A stretch of DNA of 35,864 nt, taken from positions 1 to 35,864 of the forward strand of contig CADCOS010000087.1 of NCBI GenBank assembly GCA_902803165.1. Reading direction: 5' to 3'. The notes beneath the pieces are model-generated. The model did not search any database and was not told where the DNA came from. It saw only the letters and a program-made list of their open reading frames with translations. Made by a program: the position numbers and the translations under genes. Below are positions 15,569-35,651 of this stretch, one piece after another. How positions within the stretch are numbered: the stretch's first letter is position 1; the number at the start of each line of letters is the position of its first letter. This DNA comes from an uncultured bacterium (lineage in GTDB: Bacteria > Cyanobacteriota > Vampirovibrionia > Gastranaerophilales > Gastranaerophilaceae).

Positions 15569-15664
15569 ACAATTTACAAATATTTATTATTTAAATTGTC
15601 AGCGACTAAAAAATAACGTTTTATGTTGCGAAATATAACAAATTGTAAAGTAAAAATAAAAATC

Positions 15665-15694
15665 TTTACAAAAGGCTGAAAGCCTTGTTATAAT
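15665..15694 (+). promoter_or_regulatory. Promoter with an inverted repeat in its spacer
   Basis: TTTACA (15665-15670) and TATAAT (15689-15694) are separated by 18 nt, with TGT directly before the -10 (extended -10). The spacer carries the inverted repeat AAGGCT-GAA-AGCCTT (15672-15686), a layout typical of a repressor operator placed between -35 and -10. It drives the small gene at 15839 through a leader of about 140 nt. Confidence 0.65.
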
Positions 15695-15698
15695 TGCG

Positions 15699-15723
15699 AT
15701 ATGATATGATATGATATGATATG
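15699..15723 (+). repeat. Five tandem copies of ATATG at the transcription start
   Basis: ATATG is repeated five times without interruption, starting 5 nt after the -10 box, so it covers the predicted transcription start and first transcribed bases. The unit (5 bp) is outside any coding frame. Slippage here would change promoter or leader spacing, not a reading frame. Confidence 0.9.
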
Positions 15724-15838
15724 AGGGATTTTATACATTTTTTAATTTTGCCCCTAAAGTTTTTAAAAAACCTGCCGTAATAAAAATCATAAAGTTTTTT
15801 AAGAGAGTAACCAAAACAAAGAAAGGATGGTTTATTTT

Positions 15839-16180
15839 ATGGCAGGAATTAACGGTAATTTTAATTTTGGACAGCAAGGTGTACGCCAAGCTCAAAACAC
15901 AGAAGGTTTAAAAAGCAATTTAGAAAGTGTTGACGGTAAAACTAAAAAAACACGTGAAGAACATCTTGATAAAGCTGTTTGGAATTTTGGAAGTGAGGGT
16001 TCTGGAGGCGCTAAGCCTGGTGATGTAATAGTAGCAAGGGACGAAAATGGATATGTATATTATAAAATTGATGAAAATGGTGTAGGTCAAAAATGTTCTA
16101 AGGAAGATATGTGCGATGCGCTAGAAATGACAAGGGGTGATATAAGGAAACCTTTAACGTTGCCTAAACATCATACTTAA
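15839..16180 (+). CDS. Hypothetical protein, lineage-specific
   Basis: A 113-aa protein, not recognised. I choose the ATG at 15839 because AAAGGA (15822-15827) lies about 11 nt upstream; the in-frame ATG at 15827 overlaps that site. The sequence is hydrophilic and Gly/Asn-rich (MAGINGNFNFGQQGVRQAQN), with a central basic patch KTKKTREE and a possible small beta domain (GDVIVARDENGYVYYKIDEN). There is no signal peptide or membrane segment. It has its own promoter with operator-like symmetry and stands alone, so it is probably separately regulated. Confidence 0.7.
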   Translation: MAGINGNFNFGQQGVRQAQNTEGLKSNLESVDGKTKKTREEHLDKAVWNFGSEGSGGAKPGDVIVARDENGYVYYKIDENGVGQKCSKEDMCDALEMTRGDIRKPLTLPKHHT

Positions 16181-16309: not shown

Positions 16310-16609
16310 ATGGCAGAATTTAATCCATACAGCATGTATGCATACTCAGCAGGTCAAATGTCAACAGCCGCTGACGGAAAGATTTTTGTTGATTTGCAGC
16401 GATTCAAGTCCATACACGATATTGATGAAGTAAATGAATACATTGAAAAAACATTCGGTCAATTTGAAAACCAAAAGGCATTTCATTATCCGAATGACGT
16501 GCTTGTCTTTATCAGCAAATCAGAAGAAAATGTTGAAGTTATTGCAATGCAAAAAGACAAACAAATATACGGGAATCGTTGGTTTGTTATAAAAGATGAG
16601 GATGAATAA
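16310..16609 (+). CDS. Hypothetical protein, lineage-specific
   Basis: A 99-aa protein, not recognised. AAAGGTGG lies just upstream of the ATG. The N-terminus (MAEFNPYSMYAYSAGQMS) is aromatic and polar and probably disordered. Residues about 23-99 look like a small alpha/beta domain (KIFVDLQRFKSIHDIDEVNE, DVLVFISKSEENVEVIAMQK, RWFVIKDEDE). There is no export signal. The copy of the 208-bp dispersed repeat begins 10 bp after its stop codon. Confidence 0.7.
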   Translation: MAEFNPYSMYAYSAGQMSTAADGKIFVDLQRFKSIHDIDEVNEYIEKTFGQFENQKAFHYPNDVLVFISKSEENVEVIAMQKDKQIYGNRWFVIKDEDE

Positions 16610-24198: not shown

Positions 24199-24303
24199 AA
24201 TTATCCCCTTCGTAATAAAAATATATACTAAACTATGTACAAGAGTATAATAAACATGTGTATTTTGCAAGGAAAAGTGATTTTGATAGAGATTAGGTGA
24301 TTA

Positions 24304-24525
24304 GGTGACCAGGTGATATTCCGTCATTCTGAGGGAGTGAAACGACCGAAGAATTCAGTCAATTAAATGGAAAATTGAAAATGGAAAGTGGAAAATTGGG
24401 TGATCAAGTGATCAGGTAATCAGGTGATATTCCGTCATTCTGAGGGAGTGAAACGACCGAAGAATCCAGTCAATTAAATGGAAAATGGAAAATGGAAAGT
24501 GGAAAATTGGGTGAACAGGTGATCA
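24304..24525 (+). repeat. Recent 111-bp tandem duplication containing a GTCATTCT palindromic unit
   Basis: Two head-to-tail copies, 24304-24414 and 24415-24525, differ at about 6 of 111 positions by eye. Each contains 8-bp GTGATCA-type units, then a GTCATTCTGAGGG...GAAGAAT(T/C)CAGTC unit (24323-24360 and 24434-24471) with the ATTCT/AGAAT stem, then a purine-rich TGGAAAATGGAAA-like tract. It lies in the tig upstream gap. I see no coding sequence between 24199 and 24955. Confidence 0.9.
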
Positions 24526-24573
24526 AGTGATCAAGTGATCAAGTGATTAGGTGATTGGGTGATAGGGTGATAG
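24510..24573 (+). repeat. Eight tandem copies of an 8-bp unit, RGTGATNR
   Basis: The units read GGTGAACA, GGTGATCA, AGTGATCA, AGTGATCA, AGTGATTA, GGTGATTG, GGTGATAG, GGTGATAG, in exact 8-bp register. Shorter runs of the same unit occur at 24295-24318, 24398-24429, 25858-25913 and 25960-25991. In several places it directly abuts the GTCATTCT palindromic unit. Confidence 0.92.
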
Positions 24574-24647
24574 GGGAATTATAACCTTTTCCCTCTCCCG
24601 CATTACTGTCCATGATAATTTTTGAAAAGTACAAATATGCAAAAACA

Positions 24648-25645: not shown

Positions 25646-25857
25646 AATTAAATGCTCCTATATTTACTTACTATCTTTATTTTCTAAAATAAATCCATTT
25701 TCCCTGTAACTATGCTTACAAACATGTAAACGTTTTAAAAAAATAAAAATTGCCATGTTAAAAAGTTAAAATTTTCATTAAAACGCTAAAAATATTGTAT
25801 ACAAAGCATTTTGGCGACACAAGTCATCTTCACAAAACTTTACAATGTGTTAAAAAT
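25646..25857. other. AT-rich gap without a gene
   Basis: This is the upstream region of the 229-aa gene. It contains the palindromes ACATGT and TTGTATACAA and several TTTACA/TGTAAA words that could serve as -35 elements, but no promoter I can call with confidence, and no coding sequence. Confidence 0.5.
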
Positions 25858-25913
25858 AGGTGATTAGGTAATTAAGTGATCAGGTGATCAAGTGATCAAG
25901 TGATCAGGTGATA
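25858..25913 (+). repeat. Seven tandem copies of the 8-bp GTGATCA-type unit
   Basis: Units in register are AGGTGATT, AGGTAATT, AAGTGATC, AGGTGATC, AAGTGATC, AAGTGATC and AGGTGATA. The array runs directly into a GTTATTCTGAG palindromic unit at 25918, the same junction sequence (GTGATATTC) seen at 24311-24323 and 24422-24434. Confidence 0.9.
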
Positions 25914-33380: not shown

Positions 33381-35651
33381 ATGAAAAAGTTTGCGTACAC
33401 TTTGGCAGAAGTTTTAATTGCCGTATGTATAGTTGGAGTTATATCCGCAATTTTGATAGGGCTGCTTAACAAGGCTGCCCCCGATACTAATAAAATCAGA
33501 TATTTAAAAACTTATGATGCTTTAACAAAAGCTGTCAAGACTATGTCAAAGAATTCTTCTTTGTACTCTGAAATGTCAGAGGTCGTGATACCTGATGATT
33601 TAGGAAATCCGCTTTATAAAATTACGTTAAATCTGCATAAATATCCGTTAATTGACACTAACAAACCCACAAATCCTGATTTTCAGGATGATATATATTC
33701 AGGCGCTCCGAAATTCGGTAATTTATTAAAAGTTGCTTTAAACGGAAAAACTCCGGATTCAGGTGTTAATTGTGATTTTGTAACTCCTGATAATGCACGA
33801 TGGACTGTTAATACTGTGAGCGGAATGGACGATGATTATCCGCTAATGGTAGATGAAAATGGCGTTCATGGCATTTACAAATTTTATTCAAAAATTACAG
33901 TTGATATAAACGGAGCACAGAAACCTAATCAGTCATATAATCAAAACATGCAAAATACGCCGGATATATTTATGTTTGGTGTAACAGCTAACGGTAAAGT
34001 GAAAGCGTTGGATGCTTATGGCAGGCACTATTTAAAAACAAGACGTTCACTTTCCCGTAAAAAGGTATCTTTAACAAACGAAAATTCTAATAGTATAAAC
34101 ATTAACAGTCTCGGTGTAGATATTGATATAAATATATTAAAACCTTCTTTGACAGTATACAAAAATGATGATGATGACGAGGACAATGATGACCAAAACG
34201 GTGATGATCCGAACGGCGATGATCCGAATGGTGATGATCCGAATGGCGATGATCCGAATGGTGATGATCCGAACGGTGATGATCCGAATGGTGATGATCC
34301 GAATGGCGGATTTCTGCCTATCATACACAAACCGGGATGGTGGAAGCCATGGAACGGTCATAATCCGCCGCCAATAAATCCTAATTTAATTAATAATGAC
34401 GGTGAATGGAGTAATGTGAGCGGTAGTGACTTGGCGGTCCCGTCAGTTGCACAAATGACGCAAGCATTATCAAATTCTCACAATACAGCGGTTTTATTGT
34501 CGAGCAATTGGTACGAAGGAGACGATTTGGATGATGCAGGTACTTTCAGAAGTGCCGCGAAAGCTACGTTGAATAGCATAATAGATGAATTATATGAAGA
34601 TATATTAGGATATTACTTGAATAGTTTTGTGTCAGAATCTGTAAAAAGTCAGCTAACGGTAAATCATGATGTAATTGAAAATGAAGTATTTAAGGCAAGG
34701 CTTGAATATACAAAAGAAACTCTAAAACGCTTTTATGCGAAGGTAATTGACAGTGCGGAACTTCCGTATTGTATGGATACACCTCATTTTACAGGCGAAT
34801 ATGAGAGCTCCAATTATAGTTTTTATGATTATGATTATATACAAAGGTCGAGAACTGATAAATGGTATAGTGCTAATTTGGAATTCTATGGAACAGGTGA
34901 TTTGGATGCATTGGAAAATTGGCTTCTAAATGGCGTTATGCCGGCAAGTACTCCGCGTAGCGGTATAGTTTCGTCAGGCATTGCTGTCGGACAATCAGGC
35001 TTAATATTGCTAACTGATTCAGAGAGATGGTTTTGGTTTGAGGATTGCCATGCAAAATACGCAATAAACAAAAATCAGTTAAAACAAAGATTTATGGATT
35101 TTTATTCATCTTATGCTATGACCAGAGATTATTCAAACAATTTCTGGGTGCAAAATGGTGATCCGAGCGATATCTCTTCTCAGTTTACAGGCATGTACAG
35201 ATTAGGAAATGACGGTAACGGTTCGGGTGACTATTATTATGAATGTTCAAATGCTGTATCTGACGCTAAATCTGCTATGAATACTCTTTTAAACAATATG
35301 AAAACAAAATTGACTGAAGCCGGATATCCGGAAGCTGCAGTTACATCTGCAGTAAGCAACACAAAAACATATTATGATACATTACTAACGCGAATTGGTA
35401 CAATGAACGGTACAATAGAGGACTATAGTAGTGGTCAGTATGTAAAAACGATATCGGGTGTTACTCCGACAGCTACGTTTGGAGCTATTGTGTACGGTAA
35501 AGTTAAAACATGTGATAGCAAAAGCGGTGTCGGAACAGGAACATCAGGAATTTTGGTCAGATGTTCTACAAATTGGAATACATCATGGCGAATTGATGTT
35601 GATAAATCCAAAGTATTTAACAGAGTATTGCAAAAAATAGGTGGTTCATAG
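33381..35651 (+). CDS. Giant type IV pilin-like surface protein
   Basis: A 756-aa protein. AAAGGAG lies 4 nt before the ATG at 33381; an upstream ATG at 33330 lacks a site. The N-terminus MKKFAYTLAEVLIAVCIVGV is a class III prepilin leader: short basic leader, then Y-T-L-A-E with the Glu at +5 and a hydrophobic helix. The residue before the predicted cut is Ala, not the usual Gly. Residues about 35-260 are a pilin-like domain (RYLKTYDALTKAVKTMSK...). Then come an acidic run, seven NGDDP repeats (273-307), a Trp/Pro-rich stretch (HKPGWWKPWNGHNPPP), and about 430 residues of unknown fold with several Cys (YCMDTPH, FEDCHAKY, YECSNA, KTCDSK, VRCSTN). Probably a pseudopilin-anchored adhesin or minor pilin. 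Confidence 0.82.
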   Translation: MKKFAYTLAEVLIAVCIVGVISAILIGLLNKAAPDTNKIRYLKTYDALTKAVKTMSKNSSLYSEMSEVVIPDDLGNPLYKITLNLHKYPLIDTNKPTNPDFQDDIYSGAPKFGNLLKVALNGKTPDSGVNCDFVTPDNARWTVNTVSGMDDDYPLMVDENGVHGIYKFYSKITVDINGAQKPNQSYNQNMQNTPDIFMFGVTANGKVKALDAYGRHYLKTRRSLSRKKVSLTNENSNSININSLGVDIDINILKPSLTVYKNDDDDEDNDDQNGDDPNGDDPNGDDPNGDDPNGDDPNGDDPNGDDPNGGFLPIIHKPGWWKPWNGHNPPPINPNLINNDGEWSNVSGSDLAVPSVAQMTQALSNSHNTAVLLSSNWYEGDDLDDAGTFRSAAKATLNSIIDELYEDILGYYLNSFVSESVKSQLTVNHDVIENEVFKARLEYTKETLKRFYAKVIDSAELPYCMDTPHFTGEYESSNYSFYDYDYIQRSRTDKWYSANLEFYGTGDLDALENWLLNGVMPASTPRSGIVSSGIAVGQSGLILLTDSERWFWFEDCHAKYAINKNQLKQRFMDFYSSYAMTRDYSNNFWVQNGDPSDISSQFTGMYRLGNDGNGSGDYYYECSNAVSDAKSAMNTLLNNMKTKLTEAGYPEAAVTSAVSNTKTYYDTLLTRIGTMNGTIEDYSSGQYVKTISGVTPTATFGAIVYGKVKTCDSKSGVGTGTSGILVRCSTNWNTSWRIDVDKSKVFNRVLQKIGGS
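34197..34301 (+). repeat. Seven in-frame 15-bp repeats encoding NGDDP
   Basis: The unit AAYGGYGATGATCCG is repeated seven times in exact register, encoding Asn-Gly-Asp-Asp-Pro, preceded by an Asp/Asn-rich run and followed by a partial unit (NGG). Differences are only third-position C/T changes, so the array is recent or homogenised. Because the unit is a multiple of three, copy-number change lengthens or shortens the linker without a frameshift. Confidence 0.95.

Follow-up and report, generated by a model that had tools for sequence, protein, structure and literature searches.

The window analysed here is a stretch of 35,864 nucleotides from the genome of an uncultured bacterium of the Gastranaerophilaceae, and the feature under study is a promoter on its + strand. 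A -35 element TTTACA at 15665..15670 (sequence read and promoter scan) is followed, after an 18-nt spacer, by a -10 element TATAAT at 15689..15694 (sequence read, promoter scan and family alignment). The spacer contains the inverted repeat AAGGCT-GAA-AGCCTT at 15672..15686 (+ strand), with its arms at 15672-15677 and 15681-15686, and within this repeat, at 15674-15684 (+ strand), a copy GGCTGAAAGCC of a spacer motif whose family consensus is GGCTNAAACCC. Across the predicted start site, at 15698..15724 (+ strand), lies the 5-bp tandem array (GATAT)5.4, which is 100% perfect according to TRF and which, in the register (ATATG)5, begins 5 nt past the -10 element. The preliminary description had noted the inverted repeat in the spacer and the 5-bp array behind the -10 element, and direct reading and TRF find the elements as written (TTTACA-18-TATAAT, the 6+3+6 inverted repeat and the 5-bp array). 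Upstream, an HLR1-like (RpaB) box TATAAC-AAAT-TGTAAA lies in reverse orientation, with no strand assigned, at 15634..15649 and starts 55 nt upstream of the -10 element; downstream, a sigma-28 (FliA)-like promoter TAAAGTTT-N11-GCCGTAAT was read at 15755..15781 (+ strand), 60 nt after the -10 element. In the promoter scan the core scored 11/12 and was the top promoter-like site in its 1.5-kb region, and the promoter-like sites in the scanned region as a whole were not more numerous than in shuffles (8 vs 7.0, sd 2.9).

The presumed product of this promoter is a 113-aa protein (15839..16180, + strand; ORF list, profile and homology searches) with no family match. A 117-aa form of the same ORF, read from an upstream ATG at 15827, had no match in Pfam or NCBIfam and no relative in 56 related genomes. 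Since neither a phage relative nor a PHROG was found for the 113-aa form in the phage and PHROG searches, we rejected a phage origin of the gene. An unknown ORF of 99 aa (16310..16609, + strand), which has a weak PHROG match (E 0.0087), may or may not belong to the same transcript. Other repeats also occur in the window: 8-bp tandem arrays of the GGTGATCA type were detected by TRF at 24291-24575 and 25857-25912, the former as part of a 111-bp repeat (about 2.2 copies) in which an AAATGGA array and a CATTCTGAGGGAGTGAAACGACCGAAGAATC stretch also occur, and a 15-bp repeat GGTGATGATCCGAAT, present in 7 copies and perhaps coding, lies at 34200-34306.

The array of the window promoter exceeds chance expectation, as judged from its count in the genome against a reversed control pattern and from the scarcity of period-5 tracts. 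The 1.78-Mb genome contains two GATAT arrays with 4 or more units and no match to the reversed control pattern; the second array, of 9 units, stands on contig C16 directly after a -35/-10 pair and upstream of a small unknown ORF. In the genus, 11 of 65 genomes had arrays when searched with 3.4 units, with no match to the reversed control, and in the class an array of 4.4 units was present in 29 of 382 genomes, all 29 of them from the window's own family, with the reversed control found in one. Tracts of period 5 other than GATAT are rare, numbering 4 in 755 kb of related DNA, two of which lie in or beside leaders of the promoter type described below. As the loci of this 755-kb set were found through GATAT (L121, L129, L135, L168, L181, L203, L208 and L156 being left out), these four tracts alone measure the background. 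Sixty-seven of the 101 GATAT-type tracts in the same DNA had a -10 element and an HLR1-like box under a strict automatic test, and the rest failed it.

DNA upstream of the window gene has partial matches in 37 of 57 genomes, including its own, some at the promoter and array and others at about 15752-15792. We collected sites in relatives from 48 fetched regions and at least 106 stretches obtained by scanning 84,980 species genomes; among the matches listed, 36 of the 43 stretches that name a lineage belong to Candidatus Gastranaerophilales, Melainabacteria or cyanobacteria, and 7 to others. When 108 distinct sites with a GATAT array (L121, L129, L135, L168, L181 and L195-L220 being left out) were aligned on the -10 element, they showed a single architecture, in the order TGTAAC-N4-TGTAAA, a weak -35 element, GGCTNAAACCC, the -10 element, usually four more nucleotides, and the array. 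The -10 element is TATAAT in 90 and TAAAAT in 15 of these sites, the array stands 9 nt behind it in 89, the AA of GGCTNAAACCC is conserved in 97-98%, and three GATAT units are present in 57, so that short arrays form the majority. The -35 consensus of the family, TTTAAA/TTTCAA, is weak, compared with TTTACA in the window. A promoter model without the array (R1), built from 68 sites, had matches in all 65 genomes of the genus at E<=0.01, the best E per genome ranging from 1e-16 to 0.0095, with a part of these matches weak or covering the model only partially, and in 69 of 117 genomes of the family at E<=1e-4. The earlier placing of the repeat on the predicted start site is supported, and the module around it is conserved as a whole in relatives. 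Judged from sequence, the window promoter is one copy of a Candidatus Gastranaerophilales module that precedes many unrelated, apparently effector-like genes, and what the preliminary description had missed is that the repeat belongs to a promoter type spread through the family, with a unit that varies from lineage to lineage. Several contigs of G063 (e.g. L090, L091, L093 and L094) have an end no more than about 100 bp from an array, as would be expected if the module were a dispersed repeat that breaks assembly. The full module is also present on L156 (JAMPCZ010000028.1), a contig titled Muribaculaceae and perhaps mis-binned.

The inverted repeat of the spacer had been taken for a possible operator, a reading that the relatives do not support. 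Over 77 representative spacers, the best arm pairing follows the shuffled distribution, save for a slight excess of perfect cases (6/6 pairing in 2 of 77 spacers, vs 0.2% in shuffles; the window is perfect). Arm complementarity is therefore not kept, the asymmetric motif GGCTNAAACCC being conserved instead, and we rejected an operator based on the inverted repeat.

The upstream box recurs across the family sites. HLR1 half-sites follow a 4-nt spacing rule. The best match to TGTAAC-N4-TGTAAA reached at least 9/12 in 71 of 75 scored family sites, vs 8.9% of shuffles, and the full 12/12 match was found in 30 of the 75 sites vs 0 of 3750 shuffles. Box starts cluster at -45/-44, with 8 sites one turn off at -55; the window box falls into this -55 class, shifted by about one helical turn. 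Reverse-complemented, the upstream box of the module corresponds to HLR1, the site of RpaB in Cyanobacteria described in PMC6331805, and the window genome encodes an RpaB orthologue (NF045944, 353.8 bits, cut-off 330), which may bind at the HLR1-like box. With its two direct TTACA-type half-sites and this orthologue, the module resembles the HLR1/RpaB promoters of Cyanobacteria as characterized in PMC6331805. It differs from them in that its hosts are gut relatives and its genes look effector-like rather than related to light stress.

The second promoter-like element, in the leader, is present in part of the sites. The sigma-28 consensus is TAAAGTTT-N11-GCCGATAA. Against this consensus, taken as general background, the window element matches the first half at 8/8 positions, has the spacing of 11 and matches GCCGATAA at 5/8 positions in the second half; a relaxed pattern fits 16 of the 75 representatives with a full downstream region. 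The window genome encodes a FliA/WhiG sigma factor (TIGR02479, 229.6 bits, cut-off 189.6), and its FlhA and FlhB are also above their cut-offs, the flagellar pair being located on C59. A second, divergent export gate of the FlhA/SctV family (L321:1456-3549, G000:C56) scores below the cut-offs of both families and adjoins a FliH/SctL-like gene; the two may possibly represent a second type III export system. Partial FlhA/SctV-type genes were also seen on C131 and C109.

The 94 called first genes behind the module fall into 74 families, the largest of which has 13 members that are perhaps joined by low-complexity sequence. An N-terminal hydrophobic segment is rare by a crude test, with 3 of the 94 module proteins vs 50 of 462 background ORFs, and an EF-hand-like motif is commoner behind the module (9 of 94 vs 12 of 462), the background being one that is not length-matched to the module proteins and includes loci of other organisms. 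Of ten module proteins scanned, five showed a match to EF-hand, LysM, MORN or RHS-repeat, and the other five showed none. These features suggest that the module gene products may be effectors or host-interaction proteins.

Genomes without GATAT often carry other 5-bp arrays at the same position of the module. Within the genus these are GAATA, CGGGA, GGGCA or GGATA; other genera have GGATA or GGTAT. Tracts of period 5 that reach 14 bp or more were present at the array position in 34 of 75 R1 matches, which is not a genome-wide rate, these sites having been hand-picked from the listed matches, mainly in genomes without GATAT arrays; such a tract was seen at 1 of 73 control positions farther downstream, at 0 of 74 upstream positions and in 0 of 75 shuffled sequences. 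Among other periods at this position, each of 3, 6 and 9 was seen 2 to 4 times, and period 10 is implied by period 5. Two partial promoter matches, L297 and L310 (G074 and G075), have GTA, a 3-bp unit, instead; it is repeated 17 and 10 times between flanks that are almost the same, so that the tract clearly differs in length between related species.

AT-type units share a further property in that each recreates a -10-like hexamer TANNNT every 5 bp (TATGAT, TAGAAT, TAGGAT or TATGGT). In the window array, TATGAT occurs at 15700, 15705, 15710 and 15715, the first of these 11 bp below the start of the -10 element, and the first TANNNT lies 11 or 12 bp below the -10 element in 95 of 103 array promoters, mostly with GATAT. 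Among 29 promoters without a long tract, of which a few are doubtful and which often keep 1-2 units by descent, TANNNT was found at 11 or 12 bp in 16, about 1 of 29 being expected per offset. Both sets come mostly from loci found through GATAT. The presence of the hexamer is tied to that of the repeat, since any AT-rich period-5 unit with TA yields TANNNT. In E. coli, distal sigma70 pauses require a -10-like element that lies 11 bp past the -10 element, as reported in PMC7876045, and region 2 of sigma binds -10-like pause elements as it does the -10 itself, according to PMC6606751.

Our best explanation, which we put forward tentatively, is that the module holds a ladder of -10-like elements that tunes promoter escape and changes by whole units. 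RpaB would recruit polymerase to the module promoter, and each AT-type unit would recreate a -10-like hexamer, the first of them 11-12 bp below the real -10 element. Sigma still held by the polymerase could then rebind these hexamers, and the polymerase would pause near the promoter before escape. Slippage by whole units would add or remove pause sites and lengthen the leader in 5-bp steps, and the number of units might in this way tune output over evolution, possibly also between cells; in part of the sites the leader after the array would carry the second, sigma-28-like promoter. Since CGGGA and GGGCA arrays contain no -10-like hexamer, sigma pausing cannot explain all arrays. The further claim that this is a regulon-wide promoter, in which a ladder of -10-like 5-bp units counts sigma-dependent pauses and the word is replaced lineage-wide while the period and the register to the -10 element are kept, we consider doubtful.

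Leader and tract lengths bear on both this pause ladder and a rival explanation, simple-sequence-repeat phase variation, in which the 5-bp unit would slip within individual cells and thereby shift the start or the leader length and switch the gene. Of 16 representative sites, 15 have a distance from the -10 element to TAAAGTTT of 0 or 1 modulo 5 (Rayleigh R 0.75, p about 1e-4), and the distance to GCAAT shows a weaker period-5 effect (43 sites, p about 0.007). With the two elements combined, p is about 7e-6 for period 5 and 0.04-0.05 for 10-10.5, with no effect at 3, 4, 6 or 7; the test used 70 representatives less than 80% identical upstream, from loci mostly found through GATAT. No 5-bp periodicity was seen in the distance from the element to the start codon (53 sites). 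Leaders of relatives thus differ by whole 5-bp units, so that the claim that slippage alters leader length holds over evolution, and length variation in whole units is also what phase variation would produce.

Phase variation is further favoured by perfect arrays inside the promoter or leader, some of them long (5.4 units in the window and 9 on C16), by GGGCA tracts that follow similar upstream flanks and measure 52 and 78 bp, and by products that look like host-interaction proteins. Site pairs alike upstream only differ in tract length in 64 of 167 cases and are equal in 103; examples of differences are 20 vs 24 and 52 vs 78 bp with the upstream flank alike, and 31 vs 26 bp with both flanks alike. 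However, arrays are mostly of 3-4 units, and 3-4 units are too short for fast slippage. Moreover, in 38 of the 44 site pairs with both flanks alike the tract length is equal, an argument against rapid switching in short arrays; these pairs compare different loci, with one genome per species (L121, L129, L135, L168, L181, L203 and L208 being left out), and 22 of 40 listed both-flank pairs lie within one genome with 3-unit arrays. A unit shared across most arrays of a genome is also not needed for a pure length switch. Phase variation, which the preliminary description had raised, is possible but on the unlikely side.

In a further explanation, the array would be a binding platform, as DNA or as the 5' end of the RNA, for a co-evolving regulator that reads the unit, the shared word marking a regulon. 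In the nine array-agnostic genomes with at least 2 scored arrays, 28 of 30 arrays carry the dominant unit of their genome, and units vary between genera, the position of the array and its register to the -10 element are kept, and the genes that follow are unrelated (94 proteins in 74 families). Against such a regulator, G020, G031 and G087 contain mixed units, uniformity would also follow from cassette spread or homogenisation, and the promoter cassette shares genome-specific letters outside the array too. We regard this explanation as unlikely.

It is likewise improbable that the arrays are a by-product, in which transcription-linked mutation makes 5-bp duplications at strong starts, these spread with the copied cassette and their number is neutral. 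The period does mostly stay at 5 while the sequence changes, other period-5 tracts are as rare as the four in 755 kb, and the cassettes precede unrelated genes. Against a neutral origin stands the kept register of the G and of the -10-like hexamer to the -10 element, and the 3-bp GTA unit at two related sites means that 5 is not the only possible outcome there.

Several other candidates were rejected. A helical-phase switch, for which 5 bp would be half a turn, fails because distances to TAAAGTTT do not favour a period of 10 or 10.5 bp (R 0.02 and 0.12) and those to GCAAT do so weakly (p about 0.02 and 0.04), in a way not separable from period 5. Met-Ile-stop minigenes (AUG AUA UGA), of which lambda bar is an example, do not fit GAATA and GGATA units, which have no AUG. 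By reasoning from the units, a G-quadruplex leader would be possible with GGATA, GGTAT, CGGGA and GGGCA and impossible with GATAT and GAATA, and is thus not shared by all arrays; the same objection applies to CsrA-type GGA sites, which are not common to all units.

We found no account of the module among the titles listed in searches of the literature on Gastranaerophilales/Vampirovibrionia promoters, phase variation or tandem repeats. The nearest analogues found are the (GAA)n promoters of vlhA in Mycoplasma gallisepticum and the TAACTGA arrays. Like the module, the vlhA promoters carry one unit at many promoters, with conserved flanks and variable number, as described in PMC6258824. That source places a 3-bp repeat about 40 nt upstream of the start in one paralogous family, with expression classically tied to 12 units (PMC6258824), whereas the array of the module lies over the predicted start, has a 5-bp unit that varies by lineage and precedes unrelated genes. 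The TAACTGA arrays of marine Beggiatoaceae, Cyanobacteria and Bacteroidetes are also a short tandem unit upstream of many unrelated genes (PMC4679880), but according to the same source they have a fixed 7-bp unit, lie mostly within several nucleotides of start codons and have been proposed to act in translation (PMC4679880).

The repeats of Neisseria nadA and Helicobacter sabA act upstream of the core promoter and not in the initial transcribed region. In these cases promoter output is set by repeat number, as reported in PMC2791445 and PMC4081817, and they concern single genes, unlike the module. In having a -10-like hexamer about 11 bp below the -10 element, the AT-type arrays of the module, though not those of CGGGA or GGGCA, resemble the sigma70 promoter-proximal pause elements of lambdoid late and E. 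coli promoters described in PMC7876045 and PMC6606751. Those systems have one element, whereas the module has a tandem series.

Promoter repeats have usually been seen as isolated switches at single genes or at one gene family, whereas here a repeat on the predicted start recurs in a promoter type that one family of gut bacteria uses for many unrelated genes, with units that vary by lineage. The module amounts to a natural series of initial transcribed sequences and could be used to test the control of promoter escape, and it marks effector-like genes for discovery. It also suggests that RpaB, known from the control of photosynthesis, drives effector-like genes in relatives of Cyanobacteria.
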